Of a stretch of DNA of 44,994 bases, positions 16,123 through 27,424 are shown one piece after another. A program made the translations under genes and the position numbers. The notes below the pieces were generated by a model, which was not told where the DNA came from, searched no databases, and saw only the letters and a program-made list of their open reading frames with translations. Every line of letters begins with the position of its first letter. Position 1 is the first letter of the stretch. The DNA is from Candidatus Melainabacteria bacterium (GTDB lineage Bacteria; Cyanobacteriota; Vampirovibrionia; Obscuribacterales; Obscuribacteraceae). Where the stretch lies: positions 1 to 44,994 of the forward strand of contig JAHFBI010000004.1 of assembly GCA_023250095.1 (NCBI GenBank), given 5' to 3'.

Positions 16123-18555
16123 GTGTCCTCTTCATCCAAAATCGACAATACAATGGCGGACTTAAGTACCACCGTTTTTCCACTCATCCCGTTGAGGGAT
16201 GTTGTTGTCTTTCCGCAAATGGTGACGCCGCTGTTCGTGAGCCGCCCTAAGTCCATTGCCGCTCTCGAGCAGTCCCTTCTGCGTGACGACCGGCTTGTGG
16301 TGCTGGTGGCTCAAAAGGATGCCGATTGCGAAGAGCCTCTGCAGGATGATGTTTATGACATCGGCACGCTGGCCGAGGTCATGCAAATGCTCAAATTGCC
16401 TGACGGCACGGTGAAAGTTCTGGTTGAAGGGTCGTGTCGTGTCTCGCTCACCAATTTCTTTGAGGATGCCAGCCATTTTTCAGCCACTGTGGAGGAGCAC
16501 AAGGAGCTCGTTCGTGACGATCTGCACACAAAGACGCTGATCCGCCTTTCTGTGGAGAAGTTCGAGCAGTACGTGAAGTCCACCAAGAAGATAAACCCAG
16601 AGTCTCTGCTGGCGGTCTCCGGTATCGGACAGCCAGGAAGGCTTGCTGACATAATTGCTACTTATCTCGGGCTCGATGTCGCCGAACGCCAGAAATGTCT
16701 GGAAATGATCGATAGTACCGAACGCCTGGAGTATGTCGGTCAACTGCTGTCACGCGAACTCGAGCTGGCTTATCTGGAGCAGCAGATTCACGATCGCGTC
16801 CGTTTCAATCTGGAGAAAACCCAGCGTGAATATTACTTGCGCGAAAAAATGCGCATTATTCAAGAAGAGCTGAATGCAGATGGCGAGCAGGTCGGAGAAA
16901 TCGCCGAATACAGGCAGAAAATTCACAAGGCTAAAATTACCGGCATTGCTCTCGAGCGAGCCGTCAAGGAGCTGCAACGCCTGGAAAAGATGATGCCGCA
17001 GACAGCAGAGGCTGCCGTCATCAGGACGTATCTGGATACGCTCGTCAGTTTGCCCTGGGCGAAACGTTCGCGCGATGTACTGGATCTCGCTCACGCAGAG
17101 GAGATTCTCACCGAAGACCATTACGGGTTGGAGAAAATCAAAGAGCGCATCCTGGAATATCTCGCTGTCAAGCAACTTTCCAAGCATCCCATGGGCACTA
17201 TTTTGTGCCTGGTCGGGCCGCCCGGTGTAGGCAAGACAAGTCTGGCAAAGTCTATTGCTCGCTCCATGAATCGCAAATTTGCCCGTATCTCACTCGGTGG
17301 CATCAACGACGAGGCGGAAATCCGCGGGCACCGCAGAACCTATATCGGCGCCATGCCTGGACGGATCATTCAGGCCATCAAGCAAGCGGGAACGAAGAAC
17401 CCGGTCTTGCTGCTCGATGAGATCGAGAAGATGACGCGCAGTTACATGGGCGATCCGACAGCCGCCATGCTCGAGGTGCTGGACCCGGATCAAAATGACA
17501 ATTTCACTGATCATTATCTGGACGCGCCTTTCAGTTTGAAGGAAGTCTTCTTCGTCGCCACGGCCAATGCTCTTGATTATGTGCCCAGACCCCTGCTCGA
17601 CCGGCTGGAAGTAATCCAGTTGTCCGGCTATACCGAGGAGGACAAGGTATCCATAGCCGAGCACCACATCATTCCCAAGACACTGGAGCGGCACGGGCTG
17701 ACTGCCAAGCAGCTCAAGCTTCCCGCTCCTGTTATCCGCAAAGTTATTCAGGAATACACGCGTGAGGCGGGAGTGCGCAATTTGGAGCGCTCGATAGCCA
17801 CAATCTGCCGCAAAGTGGCCACGCAGATTGTCAAAAAAGAAGAGACATCCGTCAGAGTGACACCGCAAATGATCCCGCGATTTCTGGGCCCGGCTCGCAT
17901 TTTGCGCGAGGCGGAAGCCCACGGGCCGCAGGTTGGCATTGTCACTGGACTGGCCTGGACTGAAACAGGCGGCGAGACGCTGTCGATCGAAGTGAATACG
18001 ATGCCGGGCAAGGGCAAGCTGCAGTTGACTGGACAGCTCGGTGATGTGATGAAGGAATCGGCCCAGGCCGGGTTCAGCTATATTCGCAGTAATGCCGAGA
18101 GACTCGGTCTCAAAGACAACAGCTTCATGGACAACCTGGACATCCATATACATATTCCAGAAGGAGCCATACCCAAAGATGGGCCCTCGGCCGGTGTGGC
18201 TATGACAGTTGCCCTTTTTTCAGCCATTTCCCGGCGGCCTGTCAAAGCCAGCCTGGCTATGACAGGGGAAGTGACATTGCGCGGGCGGGTTCTTTCGATC
18301 GGGGGATTGAAGGAAAAGGTGCTGGCTGCCTTGCGCGCCGGCATCAAGACTGTCATCTTCCCAAGAGGCAACGTAAAGGATCTTCAGGATGTTCCCGATT
18401 ACGTAAGCGAGAAGCTGGAACTAATCCCGGTGGCACATCTTGACGAGGTCTTCGCCATTGCCTTCAAGAATTCCCAGAAGACCGCCAAACCTGAGAAATC
18501 ACGCAATGGTGTGCGCCCCGGCTCCAAACGCAGCGCGCTCGGGCGCGTCAAGTAG
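16123..18555 (+). CDS. lon: ATP-dependent protease Lon
   Basis: GPPGVGKTSLAKSIA Walker A, GGINDEAEIRGHRRTYIGAMPGRIIQ, catalytic PKDGPSAGVAMT. Confidence 0.98.
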   Translation: MSSSSKIDNTMADLSTTVFPLIPLRDVVVFPQMVTPLFVSRPKSIAALEQSLLRDDRLVVLVAQKDADCEEPLQDDVYDIGTLAEVMQMLKLPDGTVKVLVEGSCRVSLTNFFEDASHFSATVEEHKELVRDDLHTKTLIRLSVEKFEQYVKSTKKINPESLLAVSGIGQPGRLADIIATYLGLDVAERQKCLEMIDSTERLEYVGQLLSRELELAYLEQQIHDRVRFNLEKTQREYYLREKMRIIQEELNADGEQVGEIAEYRQKIHKAKITGIALERAVKELQRLEKMMPQTAEAAVIRTYLDTLVSLPWAKRSRDVLDLAHAEEILTEDHYGLEKIKERILEYLAVKQLSKHPMGTILCLVGPPGVGKTSLAKSIARSMNRKFARISLGGINDEAEIRGHRRTYIGAMPGRIIQAIKQAGTKNPVLLLDEIEKMTRSYMGDPTAAMLEVLDPDQNDNFTDHYLDAPFSLKEVFFVATANALDYVPRPLLDRLEVIQLSGYTEEDKVSIAEHHIIPKTLERHGLTAKQLKLPAPVIRKVIQEYTREAGVRNLERSIATICRKVATQIVKKEETSVRVTPQMIPRFLGPARILREAEAHGPQVGIVTGLAWTETGGETLSIEVNTMPGKGKLQLTGQLGDVMKESAQAGFSYIRSNAERLGLKDNSFMDNLDIHIHIPEGAIPKDGPSAGVAMTVALFSAISRRPVKASLAMTGEVTLRGRVLSIGGLKEKVLAALRAGIKTVIFPRGNVKDLQDVPDYVSEKLELIPVAHLDEVFAIAFKNSQKTAKPEKSRNGVRPGSKRSALGRVK

Positions 18556-18782
18556 TCCTTTATCGGACGGACAGCTTCGACACGTCGGTGCTTTATCTGC
18601 TTTACTTAACGGGGCATCTTGCCGGGCGGATAGGCTGGCTCTGGCAAAGATGAAGCTACCGGATGGGGCAAACAGATCACCTCTTCAAAAGTCCTTGGCG
18701 GCGGAAGATGAAAAATACCCTGACGGTGGCATAACGGAAATGGTCGCCGCAGTTGTCTCGGTTCGGAGAAGCCAAGAGTTAT

Positions 18783-20198
18783 ATGTCGTCACGAGCACCA
18801 CAATCAGCAGAAAATTTTGATTCGACCGCCAAGTTGATGCTCGAGGCACTGGCCAAAGCCAGCGCTGAACTTGAAAAATCGGTTACTAACTTCACCGAGC
18901 AGCTCACATCTTTCAACGAGTCCGTTCAGAAATCGCTGGACGAAGAATTGAAGGCTGTCAATAAGCGCCTGGAGTGGACGATCAAGTCCAACCTGGAAGA
19001 GCTCGGTCACAACAAGAATCTCATCGTCAAGCGCTTGATGGATGCAGAGAGAGCCGAGCTAGAAACGATACAGTCCGCCGGGCGCAAGGTGCGCTCTGCG
19101 CTCAACTCTCATGCCATGCAGACGGAACGCCGCATTGAGAGCTTTATCGACGGGCAGATGACCGAGCTCAAATCTTATTTGCGGCAGCCAGAGGAGCAAG
19201 TGCGCAGCGCAAGTCAGACCTCCGTGGCCCGGCTAGAGGAATTGCTGCGCCAGGGTAATGAAAGTATCTCAGGCGCCGAGTCCTCTGCCAGACACGCTCT
19301 TTCTGATAAAGTGCGGCAGCTCGAAGAATTGTTGCTCGATGAGATGCACAAGGCCAGAGGGTCCATAGCGGGGCAACTTGATGAGTATGACGGTAAGCTC
19401 AAGAGCAAATCCGAAGGAGCAAGCAGCGATATCGACGAGCTTTCGTCCCGGGCTGCAGCCCAGATAGAACAGAAAGCGGAAGATTGTCAGCGCATGCTGG
19501 AGACCTCCGCCTCAGACGGACGGGAAAAGATCCAGGGTGTGAGCGAACAATGGAAGGCGCAGGTGTCCGAACTGTGTGAATCTCTGGACTCTTCTCTTTC
19601 CAGCTTGAGCTGCGTCCTGAAAGAAGCTTATGAAAGCAAACTGTCGGCAGTGGGCACTCAGGCAAGAAATGAGATTGGCGGGCTATCGAGACAAGCTCAC
19701 GAAAGAATCGAAGCCACGCGCGGCGAGCTGGAAGCAGCAATGAAAGATCTCGAAAGAGAGTATCTGGATCAATTTCAGTCCATCATAAAGCGCCTGGAAA
19801 CAGTTGTATCGGAGCACTCCAATGACAGGCGCAACAGCAATGTCGCCAGGCAGCACAAGGCGCAAAAGATGCGCGATCAGATGCAGTCTCATTTGAGACG
19901 CTGGGGTGCCAGTCTTATTGATTCCGTCAAACATGCCGCCGAGCAGCTGGAGTCGGAATTCTTGAGATCGACTGATGGTTTCCATCAGCGAGTGGAAAGC
20001 GCGCGTTCTGCGGCCATTGAATTGTTGGAGCGTGAAAGCCGCCTGATGCAGAAAGATATAGAGCGAACAATGAGAGAATTTCAAAAGGAAATGCTGGAAC
20101 TCGAAAACCAGCTCAGCCATATCGAGAAAGCCGGGCAGGACGCAGCGCTGACAGTGATTGCTTACCGCAAGGCCATGCTTTCTTTCGGGGGCGATTGA
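18783..20198 (+). CDS. Long coiled-coil protein A (~471 aa), unknown family
   Basis: ATG at 18783 (MSSRAPQSAENFDSTAKLMLEALAKASAELEKSV...); almost entirely charged amphipathic helical sequence rich in E/K/R/Q/S/A/L, no catalytic motif. Confidence 0.85.
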   Translation: MSSRAPQSAENFDSTAKLMLEALAKASAELEKSVTNFTEQLTSFNESVQKSLDEELKAVNKRLEWTIKSNLEELGHNKNLIVKRLMDAERAELETIQSAGRKVRSALNSHAMQTERRIESFIDGQMTELKSYLRQPEEQVRSASQTSVARLEELLRQGNESISGAESSARHALSDKVRQLEELLLDEMHKARGSIAGQLDEYDGKLKSKSEGASSDIDELSSRAAAQIEQKAEDCQRMLETSASDGREKIQGVSEQWKAQVSELCESLDSSLSSLSCVLKEAYESKLSAVGTQARNEIGGLSRQAHERIEATRGELEAAMKDLEREYLDQFQSIIKRLETVVSEHSNDRRNSNVARQHKAQKMRDQMQSHLRRWGASLIDSVKHAAEQLESEFLRSTDGFHQRVESARSAAIELLERESRLMQKDIERTMREFQKEMLELENQLSHIEKAGQDAALTVIAYRKAMLSFGGD

Positions 20199-20226
20199 GA
20201 AACACGGTGAAACGGAGAGCAATCAG

Positions 20227-21999
20227 ATGAACGTGTCGGGCAAGAGTCTGCAGGATATATATGATGCCGGCTCGGCGCGGCTCGAGGATCTGGAGAAGTC
20301 TCAGAAATCCAGCCTGTCCGCCACCTGCGACGCGCATTTTGAAGAGAAATCCAGCAGTGAGCCCGAGTCGCTCAAAGATCTCGAAGAGTCCTCGCAACAA
20401 CTGGAGGCAGAGATACGCTCCTGCCTGAGCCAGGGGCTGGAGCGGGTGGAAAAGACCGTACGCCTGGAAATTGAGGATAACCAGCAGTACATCGGGCGTC
20501 TTGTCGAGAGCCTGGGTCTTCTTGCTAAAAAGTTCAGCGAGTCGATCAAGCAATTAAAGGATTCGACTGAGTTCGGAATCAAGGATCTCTCTTTCGATTG
20601 CGAGGAGCAGTTCAGGCGCCATAACGAGCGTGTCAAGAGCGATTTGCACAAGCAGGGGCTTTTCGCCCTTGAGCAACTCAAGACCGAAGGCATGTCTTCA
20701 GTTCAGGGTGTGTCTGAAAAGGTGGAGGAATCTCTGCAACAGGAAGAGGAGCAAGAAAATGAGATTAAGAATCGTCTGTTCAGTGCTTTCGTCAGTTATA
20801 TCGGCTCGGTGAAGACCAGCCTTTCTGATAGCCTCTCACGACTCACAGATGTGTTTTCAGAGAAAGGTGCCCAAACGGCTGCGCGAGCAGGGTATCTCGA
20901 GCAGGAAGCCAATGAATATGCCGATCGGCTTCTGGAGTCCGCCGAAAGTCATGCGGCCGACTCGCAGACAAGGCTGAAAGAGGCTTTTCTAGGGCTTCTG
21001 CAGCAGTGCAATTTGGATTCCGAGCAGTCTGCCTCCGAGGTGATTTCTCAGCTGCGCAGTCAACATGATGCTGGCATGGCAGAGCTGAACGACAGGACCA
21101 GGCAACTCCACCGTGATATGGATGAGCTATCCGAAAGTGTTTCTCAGGCAGTTGCCTTTAGAGATCAAGAAATCCGAAGTCAGGCCGAGTCGGCGATGGG
21201 GTCTTTCGGAGCTGAGTTGCGAGAGCGAGTGGAATCCGGGGAGAATTTCAGACGAGAGCTTGAAGAAGAAAGAGCGAAAGTGGTTGAAGGGATCTGGGAC
21301 GAGTTGAGTGCCGTTCAGTCCCGCTTTGAAGAAAAAATGGCTGCGCTTGCCCGATCGACTCTCGAGCAGCTACAGAACATTTGCAGCGAAGCTGAAACGG
21401 CTATCTCCTCAGCGCAGGAGCTGTGCGTTTCCGAATCGAGATCTAATGCTTCATCGAGACAGGATGTCATTGAAGCGGCTGCTCGGGACTTCCTCGATTG
21501 TGTTTCTCAGCGCCGTGCCTCTGCGCTCGATGGCATAGCTGCCGCCGCCGGAGCCGGCGGCGCCACTGAAGACGCGCCTGATGAGGAGCAGGGGACGGCA
21601 AAAGAAGAGAAGAAAGACGAAGGCATCTCTGCGCGGGCAGACAGGGAAAAGGAAGGCAAATCAGCCAGCAAGGAGCAAGAGAGTTTGCAAGCTTCTTCGG
21701 GTCCTGATGAGCGAAAGGCCAGGATTGCCCGGGCAATTGAAGAACTGGACGAGACACTCTTGGCGCCCGGCAAGTCCGCCGAGGATAGAGCTGACACTCA
21801 GGCAGTTGGCGGCGATCCGCCTGGTGACTTAGATGTGGACGAAGACGAGTCTTCCGAGCCTTCTCTGGAGCCGGAGCCGGGCGCCAACCCTCGTCCTGGA
21901 GATTCCTCGGAGCAGTCGCCGCGCAAGCGTCCAGGCAGAAGGAATTCTCCCAATAAGTCAAATTCTGATAAGCGATCCGGAGGGGATTCGAAGAGATGA
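20227..21999 (+). CDS. Long coiled-coil protein B (~590 aa) with charged low-complexity C-terminus
   Basis: ATG at 20227 (MNVSGKSLQDIYDAGSARLEDLEKSQKSS...); coiled-coil body, then acidic linker and basic tail RKRPGRRNSPNKSNSDKRSGGDSKR; stop overlaps next start. Confidence 0.85.
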   Translation: MNVSGKSLQDIYDAGSARLEDLEKSQKSSLSATCDAHFEEKSSSEPESLKDLEESSQQLEAEIRSCLSQGLERVEKTVRLEIEDNQQYIGRLVESLGLLAKKFSESIKQLKDSTEFGIKDLSFDCEEQFRRHNERVKSDLHKQGLFALEQLKTEGMSSVQGVSEKVEESLQQEEEQENEIKNRLFSAFVSYIGSVKTSLSDSLSRLTDVFSEKGAQTAARAGYLEQEANEYADRLLESAESHAADSQTRLKEAFLGLLQQCNLDSEQSASEVISQLRSQHDAGMAELNDRTRQLHRDMDELSESVSQAVAFRDQEIRSQAESAMGSFGAELRERVESGENFRRELEEERAKVVEGIWDELSAVQSRFEEKMAALARSTLEQLQNICSEAETAISSAQELCVSESRSNASSRQDVIEAAARDFLDCVSQRRASALDGIAAAAGAGGATEDAPDEEQGTAKEEKKDEGISARADREKEGKSASKEQESLQASSGPDERKARIARAIEELDETLLAPGKSAEDRADTQAVGGDPPGDLDVDEDESSEPSLEPEPGANPRPGDSSEQSPRKRPGRRNSPNKSNSDKRSGGDSKR

Positions 22000-24900
22000 G
22001 CTTTCTGCTGTTCCAACAGAATCTTCCATTTCAGGCGGTCATCAACTACTTGAGGTTGTATGAGCCGTCCTGTACGACACCGCCTCAAGAGTGGGCAGAC
22101 CAGCATGCTGGCGATGTCACCGTCGGTGACATCGTCTTTGCTCTGGATCCTATCTATTCACCGTGGGGAGACTCGTCGACTGGCATTGGCGTCGCCGATG
22201 GTGATTCTTTTAAAGTATCGCAGGCTTGCTTCATCTACAAGCGAGAGGGCAAATCGCTTGTGGCTTTCGCCCTTACAGCTGATGTGTACGAATATCACTT
22301 GTTGCCCGATTTGCTGGCACACAATGTGCAGGCTGCGCGCTCCGCCTCTGGCGGATTCTACTATGCCATAGTCCGGCCGGCGGATCCTCTTCTTGCCGAC
22401 AAAATGCGTGCTCTCACAATGCTTGACTCTTATGGAACCTCCGGATGGCGAACAAGTGATGCTGGCGTTATCGATATACCGGTGGCATTTCTGGGTGCTT
22501 GCGGCATTGCCGTTGATCCGGCACTGAACGATCAAGTAATTGATGTCGGACAGCTGGCTTACATGATATTCAGTGATAAGGAACCCCCAGCCGGTAGCAG
22601 ATATCCTGATCTGCGCAGGCGTTTCTTGCCTGTGGGACGCAACGTTCACCTGCCTGTGGCGGAACTTTCCGCTGAGCCTGGTTCCCACCTTGGCGGGCTG
22701 TGCGATGCGTCGCCAGCCTCTCCTGCAGCAGTCGAGGCGCAGGGGAAATTTTCGACAAGGCGTATTATCCCGACCAAGCCGCAGTCGATAACACCTATGC
22801 CTACGGCATCCTCTCCGCTGAGATCTGTCAGTGTTCCACAGCAAGGGCTTCCAGGCGTCCAAGACGACGCATCGCCGGATTTCCCGCAGGAGTCGGAGAC
22901 TTCTTTTGTCGGTGAGCCTGGAACTTCTCCCCCACCTCTTCGACCGGCGGAAGGACAGGTCCAGATTCCGGTGGCACCGCCTTTGCCTTCTGGCGGTCCG
23001 CCGCCTTTGCCCCAGGCTTCTTCCCGGCCTGTGCCGCCGCCTTTGCCTCAGGCTCCTGCCGGACCCGTGCCGCCGCCTTTGCCGTCTCATTTTCCAGGGG
23101 CTCCCTCTCGACTTTTGAGAGATGCTGGCTCGCCTGAAGCTCCCCTGCCGGATTCTGAGAACTCATCGCCTTTCTTGCCCCGACTTCAGAGTTCTCTTGG
23201 TTCAATCATCCCGGGCTTGCGAAAAGCTCCTTCCGGCCCAGTGCCCCCAATGCCCTCATCGCCGGAAGGGGGTTCTCGCCAGGCTGAGGCTGCGGCGCAA
23301 GAGAGCAGCTGTTCGGAGCCAGCTGAATCTTTGCCGGCGGACCTGTCCGCATCTTTTTCCGGGAGTCTTCCCGAGGAGATTGTTTCAGACCTTTCTCAGA
23401 CGGAGGTAAAGGGCGGAGCTTTCGGGCTGGAAGATGTGTCCGGGGTAACAAATTCTGAACATGTAAGCTCATCTGTCCTGGCTGACGGCGAATCAGTCGC
23501 TGTGCCTATCCACAAGGAGATAGACACGGTAGAGCCTCAGTCCGAGGTGTCTGGCGCAAATCCCTTTGCGTCGGGGCAGGTGGAATCTGTGCAGATTGAG
23601 ATGGTATCCAAGGTAGTTGAGGAAGAACTGCCGGCAGCCCCGGCATCGCCCGACGGGGAACCGGCAGCTGCTGTTCGGATGCCTGGGACCGGTCCTTTGG
23701 TGGCAGGGAAGCCAGTCGAGGGGATTTTGAATTCTCTTGCGACCGCTCCGCCTATTGCTGGCATGCCACCGCGCAAGAAAAAAATGGAAGCGCGCGAGGC
23801 ATCTTCTCAAGCCGAACTGCCCAGCCGCGCACATCTCAAGGAGCCTGCTCCCGTTAAAAGCGGCGTGGCCGGACTTGTGTCCAAGCTTGAGCAGCAGGCC
23901 AGCAAGGCGTCGTCGAGACTGGAGTCGCAGGTCGAGGAGATTCAGGGGCGGTTGTCCGCCGAACTTACCTCCTTGCTGGATAAAGTGGGTGCAAGCGAAA
24001 GACGCAGCGTTAGAAGTGCTGAAGGACTGCGAAAGAACTTGCTCTCTAAGATGGAGGCTGCCGCTGCCGAAGTCAAACAGGATATTCGCGATGCAGCGCT
24101 CACAGGCGGCGAGTCCATCAATGAGTTTGTGGAGAGCGGGCGCACTGCTATCGATGAGAAGCACGAGCAGCTGAAAGTGGCTTTGAGACAGTCTTTCGAA
24201 GGGGTGCGCGAGAAAGCCGAAGATCTGGCCAGATCCTTTGAGGAGGGCTCCAATAGTCACTGCGAGCAAAGCCTTGGCGATCTCAGAGCGCTGATGGAAT
24301 CGCTCGAGGGCCAGTTGAATGAAGCCGGTGAATTTTATTGTTCTGCGCTGCAAGAGGCCCTTGAGCGGTTCAAGGGGCGCATCCTTGATGGCGGGACGTA
24401 CATGTCTGATTCGCTGTCGGGATACTATAACAATCTGGATCGTGAGATTGAGGACTTGCATGAGCGCGCCCGGAAGAAGATCGAGTTTGTCCAGGCAGAA
24501 CTCAAGCAGAAGCTGGATCGGATGGCTCAGTCTTCTCAGCTCGATTCGATGCGGGTTCAGGCTGCCTCCGTTGCCGATGCCATCGTACCGAGACTGAAAG
24601 AGCATCGCGAGATTCTGAGAGTGATGATTCTGGAATTTCAGCAAAAACTGGCAAGCGACCTCGAGGAAAGGGGGGGCGAGAGAATCGCGCAGATAGAGCC
24701 GCTTCTTGAAGAAAAGAAACAAGAACTCTCAGTGTTGCTCGCCGATACCGCCAAGATTAAAGAGGCTCTGGAGGACAGGCAACGCGAGCACCTCGAGCGT
24801 ATTTGCCACGAATTGATAGCTGCCGTCGACGGTAGTATAGAAGAGGCAAACGTCATTTTCCAGGAAAGCGAAGAACAGGTCGGCCAAATTGACAGAGCTG

Positions 24901-25208
24901 TGCGCATACTGGCCGATCCCTCCAGCATCGAAGGTGATCTCGACCTGCTCAGTCAGCGGGCCGATGTGCTGGAAAAGCTGGCTCAGTGCGCTGATCAGAC
25001 GACCCAGGAAGTGCATGCTGCTTTGAAAGAGAAAGTTGCCGCCCTCGAGGAGAGGGGCAAGGCTCTTCAGGAAGATCTCATCTCTTCTATGGAAGAAGAT
25101 GCCTACCTGGTACGCCGCACTTCCGAGCAGGTTCTCAACCGTCTGCGTGAAAACATTCAGGAGACTTTTGCTGCCATTCAGGCAGCTCAGGATGAGCGCA
25201 TGGAATGA
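21996..25208 (+). CDS. Long protein C (1070 aa): N-terminal globular domain, PPPLP-rich linker, coiled-coil C-terminus
   Basis: ATGA overlap with gene B; N-term MSFLLFQQNLPFQAVINYLRLYEPSCTTPPQEW...; linker PPLPSGGPPPLPQASSRPVPPPLPQAPAGPVPPPLPSH; C-terminal ~450 aa helical coiled coil. Confidence 0.88.
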   Translation: MSFLLFQQNLPFQAVINYLRLYEPSCTTPPQEWADQHAGDVTVGDIVFALDPIYSPWGDSSTGIGVADGDSFKVSQACFIYKREGKSLVAFALTADVYEYHLLPDLLAHNVQAARSASGGFYYAIVRPADPLLADKMRALTMLDSYGTSGWRTSDAGVIDIPVAFLGACGIAVDPALNDQVIDVGQLAYMIFSDKEPPAGSRYPDLRRRFLPVGRNVHLPVAELSAEPGSHLGGLCDASPASPAAVEAQGKFSTRRIIPTKPQSITPMPTASSPLRSVSVPQQGLPGVQDDASPDFPQESETSFVGEPGTSPPPLRPAEGQVQIPVAPPLPSGGPPPLPQASSRPVPPPLPQAPAGPVPPPLPSHFPGAPSRLLRDAGSPEAPLPDSENSSPFLPRLQSSLGSIIPGLRKAPSGPVPPMPSSPEGGSRQAEAAAQESSCSEPAESLPADLSASFSGSLPEEIVSDLSQTEVKGGAFGLEDVSGVTNSEHVSSSVLADGESVAVPIHKEIDTVEPQSEVSGANPFASGQVESVQIEMVSKVVEEELPAAPASPDGEPAAAVRMPGTGPLVAGKPVEGILNSLATAPPIAGMPPRKKKMEAREASSQAELPSRAHLKEPAPVKSGVAGLVSKLEQQASKASSRLESQVEEIQGRLSAELTSLLDKVGASERRSVRSAEGLRKNLLSKMEAAAAEVKQDIRDAALTGGESINEFVESGRTAIDEKHEQLKVALRQSFEGVREKAEDLARSFEEGSNSHCEQSLGDLRALMESLEGQLNEAGEFYCSALQEALERFKGRILDGGTYMSDSLSGYYNNLDREIEDLHERARKKIEFVQAELKQKLDRMAQSSQLDSMRVQAASVADAIVPRLKEHREILRVMILEFQQKLASDLEERGGERIAQIEPLLEEKKQELSVLLADTAKIKEALEDRQREHLERICHELIAAVDGSIEEANVIFQESEEQVGQIDRAVRILADPSSIEGDLDLLSQRADVLEKLAQCADQTTQEVHAALKEKVAALEERGKALQEDLISSMEEDAYLVRRTSEQVLNRLRENIQETFAAIQAAQDERME
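22974..23090 (+). repeat. In-frame proline-rich repeat coding for PPLP units
   Basis: Four copies of CCGCCTTTGCC encoding (P)PPLP separated by short linkers. Confidence 0.85.
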
Positions 25209-25215
25209 GAAAAAC

Positions 25216-26517
25216 TCACATGCCTACAGGCGGTGGCGTGGCTCCGTCTGGCTGGATGGAGAAGTCGAGCTGGCAGAAGGTGCAGCAGATGGCGTATCTA
25301 TAGAGCTTGTGCTCGCAGCGCGGGCAGCGTCTGAAGTCGGAATTGAAGTCGTCAATCTCTGCCATTTCGCCGGACTCAGTCATGGCTTCGGGATCTAAGA
25401 GCAGGGCATCTGAAGCAGCTTCGGCAAGCCTGTCGATCAGTCGTCTTTCATCATGTACTGTCTTCACCCCCATGTTTTCAGGATGGGTGGCGGGACTTGC
25501 TTGCGGCAGGCACGGCGGAAGCGACACTTGCAGGGGCAAGTCGTGCGCCGGATACAAAAGCGGTGGTTCAAGGTGTCTGTCGTTGTTCCGGCAATTACAG
25601 GACAACCCGCCTTGACTTGTGGCTTTCGAACAAAAAACGCATCGCCTCAGATTCACCCGCGCAATAGCCGGCTGTTGTCTGGCAGGGTCCATGGAGGGCC
25701 GCTTTCTGCTGGGTGACAGGGCAACACCTGGGGCAGCTGAGCGTAAAGTCACGGCTTCTGGACTGCCTGGCAGCGGGGGAACTGCAGCTGTGCCTTCCTC
25801 TGAGTTTGCCACAGAGACAGAGTCTGTCTTCGTGCTAGTGCTGTCTTTCAGTCCGGTCAAATCATTGGCTGGGAATATGTTGTCCTGCCAGGGAAAGTCG
25901 TCTTTTACCGGTGAGGTCTCCATGCTGTCAGGCATGGGAAGGGCTTCTGAGCTGGCTGAATCGTCTATTTGGACGGCGCCGGTGGTAAGCTCGCCAGCGG
26001 TCGGATCGCCGAAAGAGGACTCCTGGGCGCTATTTTCCCTGCAATGTCCCTGGCCGACGGACGAGGACGGCAACGGCTCTCTGGAAGGAGAGTCTTCAGC
26101 AGCAGGCAGGCAGCAGCCAGTTGTTTGCAAGGGATGCTCTGAGTCGGAACCCTCTTTTACTCCCAGGCTCAAGCCTGCAGAGTCCGTGGCAAGCGCCCGT
26201 CTGATTGACACTGCCAGCTCGACTTCTGCTTCGGATATGCCATGAATGCGCATTGGCCCTGCCCAAATCCGCTGCCAGGGAGCATCGGCAAGCGCCCGCT
26301 CGATAATCATGTCCAGCACCATCGCCCGCAAAGCCTGTTTTAAGTGCACGGCCGGAGCAATTTCCGGGGGCTGCCGGTCAGGGCGGCGGCGAGCTGGTCT
26401 ATCCGGCTTTGAAGAGCCGCAATTGGCAGGAGAAGGATTGGCAGGACTGGCGCTCAATTTCCAGCCTCCAGAGCGGGCCGGGTCAGGACACCATTTGTTA
26501 GTAACGACCGGACTCAC
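25216..26517 (-). CDS. Hypothetical protein with two zinc-ribbon-like cysteine clusters
   Basis: HLKQALRAMVLDMIIERALADAPWQRIWAGPMRIHGISEAEVELAVSIRRAL; RRCVFCSKATSQGGLSCNC; C-terminal CPRCEHKLYRYAICCTFC. Start codon uncertain. Confidence 0.65.
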   Translation of the reverse strand: MSPVVTNKWCPDPARSGGWKLSASPANPSPANCGSSKPDRPARRRPDRQPPEIAPAVHLKQALRAMVLDMIIERALADAPWQRIWAGPMRIHGISEAEVELAVSIRRALATDSAGLSLGVKEGSDSEHPLQTTGCCLPAAEDSPSREPLPSSSVGQGHCRENSAQESSFGDPTAGELTTGAVQIDDSASSEALPMPDSMETSPVKDDFPWQDNIFPANDLTGLKDSTSTKTDSVSVANSEEGTAAVPPLPGSPEAVTLRSAAPGVALSPSRKRPSMDPARQQPAIARVNLRRCVFCSKATSQGGLSCNCRNNDRHLEPPLLYPAHDLPLQVSLPPCLPQASPATHPENMGVKTVHDERRLIDRLAEAASDALLLDPEAMTESGEMAEIDDFNSDFRRCPRCEHKLYRYAICCTFCQLDFSIQPDGATPPPVGM

Positions 26518-26620
26518 TGAGAATAAGCAAACTCTCTGGCAGATTTGTGGAATGCTAGAGGTTGCCAGCTTGTTGCCTTAGTGTACAGGAAAGTTTAGAC
26601 TTTGTTAATAGGTGGGCTGG

Positions 26621-27424
26621 ATGAAACGAGAAGTTCCACATTTCCGCATTGGTTTGCTCCTGACAGAAGCTGGGATTCTCGATCCCCAGCAGCTCAACGC
26701 GGCCATCATGGCCGGGGAAAAAACCGGGGTTCCGTTTCTGAGAGTTCTGGTCTCATCGGGCTTCCTTTCGCAAGAGGAGCTGCAAGCAGTTGTCCGGGCT
26801 CAATCTCTCATATGGAAAGGTTTCCTGGAAGTGGAACCTGCTGTGAAGGCGCTAAACCTTGTACATACGCGCCACCTGACGATCGAAGAGAGTCTCAAGA
26901 GCGTGGGCTGGGTGCGACCGGAGGTAGCTGCCGCGCAGGAATCGCACATTCTGCCGGTGTCCGTTCAGGAGCGGCCCGACTCGGTCGTGCGCCAGCGCCC
27001 GGCTGAAGGTGGAAATGGCGGTCAGAAATGTCAGTACTGTGCCGCCCCGCTTGATTCGGGAGCCTTGCGCTGCCAGTTCTGCACTGGCGAAGTGCCGAAG
27101 ATAGTTCCGTCTGTTTCCAGAGTTGAGACTGTCCGAAATGTTGATATTAAGCCTTTCGATGACAGAAGCATCAAGGCGGTGAATCCGCCTCGGGATCCTG
27201 TGATCATGTCCTTTTTCAGTGGTTGTTGTGTTCCAGGTGTCGGTCAGGTGCTCATGGGACAGACGGCAAAAGGGATAACCCTGGTTCTTAGCGCTGTCGT
27301 ACTTGCCTTTCTCACGGGAGGGATGGTCAATCTCTTGCTGTCGCCGCTTGCGGCGCTGGATGCTTATTTGCTGGCTGAGAAATTGAAAAACGGGAAATAC
27401 ATCGGGCCATGGGAATGTTTCTAA
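26621..27424 (+). CDS. MshEN/GspE-N-like domain, zinc ribbon and TM2-like membrane segment
   Basis: RIGLLLTEAGILDPQQLNAAI...FLRVLVSSGFLSQEELQAVVRAQ; CQYCAAPLDSGALRCQFC; SGCCVPGVGQVLMGQTAKGITLVLSAVVLAFLTGGMVNLLLSPLAALDAYLLA. Confidence 0.75.
   Translation: MKREVPHFRIGLLLTEAGILDPQQLNAAIMAGEKTGVPFLRVLVSSGFLSQEELQAVVRAQSLIWKGFLEVEPAVKALNLVHTRHLTIEESLKSVGWVRPEVAAAQESHILPVSVQERPDSVVRQRPAEGGNGGQKCQYCAAPLDSGALRCQFCTGEVPKIVPSVSRVETVRNVDIKPFDDRSIKAVNPPRDPVIMSFFSGCCVPGVGQVLMGQTAKGITLVLSAVVLAFLTGGMVNLLLSPLAALDAYLLAEKLKNGKYIGPWECF

Follow-up and report, generated by a model that had tools for sequence, protein, structure and literature searches.

Three linked genes encoding hendecad rods of nearly fixed length in Obscuribacterales: a candidate structural scaffold

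Background

What is the role of three consecutive genes, each encoding a protein with a very long amphipathic helix, that lie directly behind lon in a bacterial genome? The question is raised by a stretch of 44,994 nucleotides (contig JAHFBI010000004.1, assembly GCA_023250095.1; hereafter "the window") from the 5-Mb draft genome of a Candidatus Melainabacteria bacterium, which by the kinship of its genes appears to belong with the Obscuribacterales. The genes are all on the plus strand. Gene A (18783..20198, ATG at 18783) encodes 471 residues, gene B (20227..21999, ATG at 20227) 590 residues and gene C (21996..25208, ATG at 21996) 1070 residues; A and B are separated by 28 bp, and B and C overlap by ATGA. 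An initial annotation of the window gave these positions, sizes and junctions correctly, and proposed that the three products, described as heptad-like coiled coils, form a multi-component structural assembly. A, B and C are real genes: homologues in the same arrangement were seen in 20 further genomes of the order that were inspected closely, and the assigned start codons are consistent with the conserved N-termini of the relatives. A text search of a literature collection found no paper on coiled-coil proteins in Obscuribacterales.

Results and Discussion

Periodicity and length of the rods

The rods of A, B and C are hendecad, not heptad, and nearly uninterrupted for 440–470 residues. The hydrophobic period falls between 3.64 and 3.70 residues in every sequence analysed (A 21/21, B 21/21, C rod 17/17), with best values on the alignments of 3.665 for A, 3.670 for B and 3.680 for C. 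The power at these periods is 76.7, 74.8 and 62.5, respectively, compared with a maximum of 7.9–8.8 among shuffled sequences, and at the heptad value of 3.5 it is 1.1, 0.03 and 1.1. Phase is held to within about 60 degrees along the whole of A and B, and the C rod has one break near its middle. The rod extends over nearly the whole of A and ~440 residues of B. In C it is the C-terminal portion (23865..25205, 447 residues of the 1070), so that the earlier description of almost entirely helical proteins holds for A and most of B but not for C.

The hydrophobic arc spans about ±60 degrees, and its core centre consists of 78–84% ILVMFYWC and only 4–6% Ala. Hendecad coiled coils are nearly straight; Ala-rich cores allow dimers, whereas cores that lack Ala require higher oligomeric states (PMC9858780). 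By this rule the bulky, Ala-poor cores suggest that the rods assemble above the dimer level.

The sequences of the rods drift freely while their lengths hardly change. Residues 12–340 of A comprise exactly 329 residues in 20 of 21 relatives at a mean pairwise identity of 26%, residues 5–430 of B comprise 426 residues in 20 of 21 (25% identity), and the C rod comprises 447 residues in 13 of 17 (26% identity). Gap events per sequence pair number 0.10, 0.47 and 0.71 in the rods of A, B and C, compared with 3.7 in the N-terminal domain of C at 36% identity. In two divergent B proteins (L023 and L030) compensating gaps preserve the total length, which may be an effect of the alignment. The ends of the rods are conserved and the middles variable: conservation peaks in the N-terminal ~40 and C-terminal ~110 residues of A, at the N-terminus of B (motif GKxLQDIYDxG) and in a patch near its residues 160–200 (peak at 161–200), and at both ends of the C rod.

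A separate observation concerns residue 136 of A (window 19188–19190), a proline shared by at least 90% of A proteins; it falls midway along a helix predicted to be continuous, where it could introduce a kink.

Amphipathic helices of this kind might instead coat a lipid surface or a storage granule, in the manner of apolipoproteins, perilipins or phasins. The best profile similarities of the rods are indeed to apolipoprotein A-IV/A-I, A has a weak phasin match, the period is 11/3, and the usual site of the genes (see below) adjoins an operon that produces acetyl-CoA. However, every Pfam score is below its cut-off: PF01442 (apolipoprotein A1/A4/E) scores 51.5 bits with A, 14.3 with B and 36.3 with C, far from the gathering cut-off of 90, and the phasin family scores 25 bits with A against 28.8. 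In a class A lipid helix Lys and Arg flank a broad hydrophobic face, whereas in the rods they are spread across the polar side. A coat should also tolerate gain or loss of whole 11-mers, and almost no length change is seen over 21 genomes. We consider a lipid coat quite improbable and the apolipoprotein resemblance likely convergent. The more specific case of a phasin coat on polyhydroxyalkanoate granules was rejected because PhaC_N (PF07167) is nearly absent, being found in 1 of 27 Obscuribacterales genomes searched (class III synthases, for which no separate search was made, may be missed).

Distribution and co-inheritance of the module

Relatives of the three proteins are confined to the same family or order, with matches to A in 22 of 40 relatives, to B in 18 of 30 and to C in 20 of 30. 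A profile of A matched over its full length in 30 of 39 genomes of the order searched, and outside the order yielded only a 59-residue scrap in one genome (G030). The N-terminal domain of C was not found in any of 293 further genomes sampled from the phylum. A scan of a contig collection with A alone gave no match; the same kind of scan with the C domain gave 28 loci. In all, Ca. Obscuribacterales yielded about 40 orthologous loci, besides 7 paralogous modules, a tally that merges records and in which near-identical species are possibly counted twice.

The order and strand of A, B and C are identical in every locus, as far as the contig reaches, with A–B distances mostly of 12–70 bp and B–C distances of −4 to 79 bp. 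The module has been duplicated as a whole in three genomes (G042, G050 and G011), with up to four modules per genome. The trio travels, duplicates and disappears as a block. This behaviour and the conserved three-gene neighbourhood fit the proposed multi-component assembly. The extra modules (L095–L102 in G042 and G050, L103 in G011) lie in other neighbourhoods, and paralogous modules contain A as open frames of 464–488 residues and B as frames of 436–448 residues.

It is conceivable that each protein forms a homo-oligomeric filament or spacer of its own, comparable to intermediate filaments and to FilP or Scy, and that the three are merely co-expressed parts of a common pathway, for example in polarity or cell shape. 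FilP of Streptomyces forms striated filaments (PMC6599971), and every rod here has its own conserved ends. Strict co-retention and co-duplication, together with similar rod lengths, fit a single complex better, and we regard three independent filaments as unlikely, though it is the strongest of the alternatives.

Genomic context

The window's lon gene (16123..18555, plus strand) is not a typical neighbour. In 30 of the about 40 orthologous loci (neighbour counts leave out six further genomes with a full-length match to A) the module follows the LipA/pyruvate dehydrogenase (PDH) genes (E1a-E1b-E2-Lpd) on the same strand, usually ahead of an uncharacterised gene, here called gene5. In six loci, the window among them, tig-clpP-clpX-lon takes the place of the PDH operon; one genome (G005) has neither beside the module, and three loci are cut by contig ends. 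As f2, the order's other family, shares the PDH arrangement, the PDH site is probably the ancestral location. The lon-context genomes retain the PDH operon without the module or gene5 (G000 and G015 partly at contig edges). Quick maximum-likelihood trees (FastTree) of A, B and the N-terminal domain of C all unite the lon-context and paralogous copies, with support of 1.0, 0.997 and 1.0, although some branching among the paralogues is poorly supported and differs among the three trees. The joint grouping points to a single relocation from PDH to lon in the window's clade, followed by whole-module duplications, and the adjacency to lon is judged incidental.

These comparisons bear on two further explanations. 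The first is that the proteins are tied to Lon protein quality control, for instance as substrates or adaptors, a link suggested by the fact that in the window the trio directly follows tig-clpP-clpX-lon. The arrangement is restricted to one clade through the single relocation, however, and in L021 and L095 other open frames intervene between lon and A. On synteny we rejected a Lon partnership, which strikes us as scarcely credible; lon is judged to lie outside the module. The second is a scaffold that organises the PDH complex, as the usual position directly behind the PDH operon would suggest. Yet the lon-context genomes and G005 have the module elsewhere even though a PDH operon is present, and three genomes have PDH genes without a module, absence being judged by profile searches of draft assemblies. 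G021 has an empty site, with gene5 49 bp after Lpd; in G008 a single reverse gene separates the two; and G018 has neither module nor gene5. Moreover, the gap between Lpd and A, usually 86–430 bp but up to about 1.2 kb, is looser than that between A and B or B and C. A PDH scaffold therefore seems very improbable to us.

Some neighbouring genes deserve description in their own right. The product of gene5 (for example L027:15833–16441 and L038:14994–15626), located after C in most PDH-context loci, has about 200–230 residues with an N-terminal YHGT-like motif and no confident Pfam or PHROGs match; it was detected in 21 of 40 relatives and nowhere outside this order, and it stays at the PDH site without A, B and C in G021 and G008. 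In G011 a gene for an aminoacyl-tRNA editing domain protein (PF04073; L023:3081–3581, minus strand) lies directly behind C and replaces gene5. In the window, C is followed by a convergent 433-residue open frame (25216–26517, minus strand) with several CxxC pairs, low-complexity stretches and no Pfam match, which may or may not be a gene. Further downstream, positions 26612–27424 encode a 270-residue protein with a CxxC...CxxC zinc-ribbon-like stretch, hydrophobic C-terminal segments and no confident Pfam family; a relative with 52% identity adjoins C in L021. Promoter and terminator scans of window positions 18400–20400 gave nothing above chance.

Head, linker and tail

As the initial annotation had noted, C carries an N-terminal domain and a proline-rich linker in front of its rod, and B an acidic stretch and a basic tail behind its own. 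The N-terminal domain, or head, of C (21996..22640, ~215 residues) gave a model of 228 residues with a mean predicted local distance difference test (pLDDT) score of 86.8 and a predicted template modelling (pTM) score of 0.85. The model had no fold match at E ≤ 0.001 in the PDB or among viral structures, and the head has no Pfam family common to its members and no convincing sequence relative in the PDB. By comparison with those two structure sets, the modelled head may represent a new fold. A papain-like fold was considered and not accepted: the top PDB match was AvrPphB, with a probability of 0.69 but an E-value of 0.21 and a TM score of 0.27, calpains and Josephins appeared lower in the list, and the alignment contained no invariant Cys or His.

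The C linker (22641..23864, 408 residues, 17% Pro) is presumably disordered; in relatives it contains 10–19% Pro and varies from 218 to 1200 residues. Only some of the relatives have the acidic linker and short basic tail of B. Being clade-variable and absent from many relatives, the basic tail is unlikely to be central.

Relation to known systems

None of A, B and C reached a Pfam or NCBIfam cut-off, in keeping with the earlier view of the cluster as an undescribed system. No Pfam match was found in the three proteins to DivIVA (up to E 0.1) or to the ABC ATPase head domains of SMC and MukB. Bactofilin, crescentin and other filament families gave no Pfam or NCBIfam match (no direct comparison with crescentin was made), and no membrane segment was found in A or B.

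The closest functional parallel may be FilP and Scy, cytoskeletal and polarity proteins of Streptomyces in the DivIVA superfamily. These are likewise cytoplasmic, with long coiled-coil rods containing extended hendecads (PMC9858780), and several coiled-coil partners act together. In contrast, A, B and C show no DivIVA-like N-terminal match, have bulky rather than Ala-rich cores, and form a three-gene module in Cyanobacteriota, whereas FilP and Scy belong to Actinomycetota. By this analogy A-B-C would resemble FilP/Scy in working while standing outside that family.

The tails of ZorA from the Zorya defence system match all three rods weakly by profile. The cytoplasmic ZorA tail is a long bundle of the C-terminal parts of five subunits (PMC11890865). 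Membership in the ZorA family is not supported: the NCBIfam ZorA score is 18.8 bits compared with a cut-off of 190, the PADLOC matches begin only after the N-terminal membrane region and are limited to the helical tail, and neither a match to a MotA/ExbB/TolQ membrane domain nor any Zorya neighbour was found. Within the same phylum, cyanobacterial Fm7001 and Slr7083 are coiled-coil-rich cytoplasmic proteins able to form filaments (PMC7002697), a likeness drawn by description only; Melainabacteria do not feature in the main text of that survey.

A possible strut scaffold

The gene linkage, the fixed length, the conserved ends and the tethered head together fit a cytoplasmic strut or filament scaffold of all three proteins. 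The long helices predicted for A by AlphaFold2 and the absence of membrane segments from A and B also speak for it. We propose that A, B and C are subunits of one structural assembly specific to Obscuribacterales. Each protein would supply one straight, nearly uninterrupted hendecad helix of 440–470 residues, or about 65–70 nm at 1.5 Å per residue. The helices would bundle side by side with matched ends, probably as a higher-order hetero-oligomer, the oligomeric state being favoured by the bulky cores, given that hendecad cores are either Ala-rich or of higher oligomeric state (PMC9858780). Such a bundle would form a strut or protofilament, stiff and of defined length, whose conserved ends might join struts or dock partners, and the globular head of C on its long flexible linker may recruit cargo or anchor the strut.

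Several points weigh against this proposal. Co-assembly is deduced from gene linkage, and hhalign comparisons among the three rods gave several off-diagonal alignments of similar score, so that neither colinear homology nor descent from one ancestral rod was shown. Each rod has a net charge of about −20, and with all three acidic, charge itself does not favour association. The AlphaFold2 model of A predicts two long helices (residues 11–346 and 356–469, with a flexible break at 347–355) with a mean pLDDT of 76.6 but a pTM of 0.22; the helices are likely, and their overall geometry is of low confidence. Helices that lie on a lipid surface would likewise be compatible with an 11/3 period. Finally, the nearly complete genomes G008, G018 and G021 do without the module, which is hence not essential to the order. 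On balance we lean towards the full strut model, by a modest measure.

Conclusions

More tentatively, and with considerable doubt, the trio could be a bacterial cytoskeletal element of a new class, namely a hendecad strut of constrained length that requires all three subunits. It would act as a molecular ruler of about 65–70 nm bearing a tethered head of new fold, and would have arisen in Obscuribacterales and multiplied, in one genus, into several systems running in parallel. Free sequence drift combined with near-fixed rod length is an unusually clean sign of selection on length itself. Long hendecad coiled coils have received little attention (PMC9858780), and the trio provides a test case for them. 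For the Obscuribacterales, little-studied non-photosynthetic relatives of cyanobacteria, it also gives a concrete handle on cell architecture.
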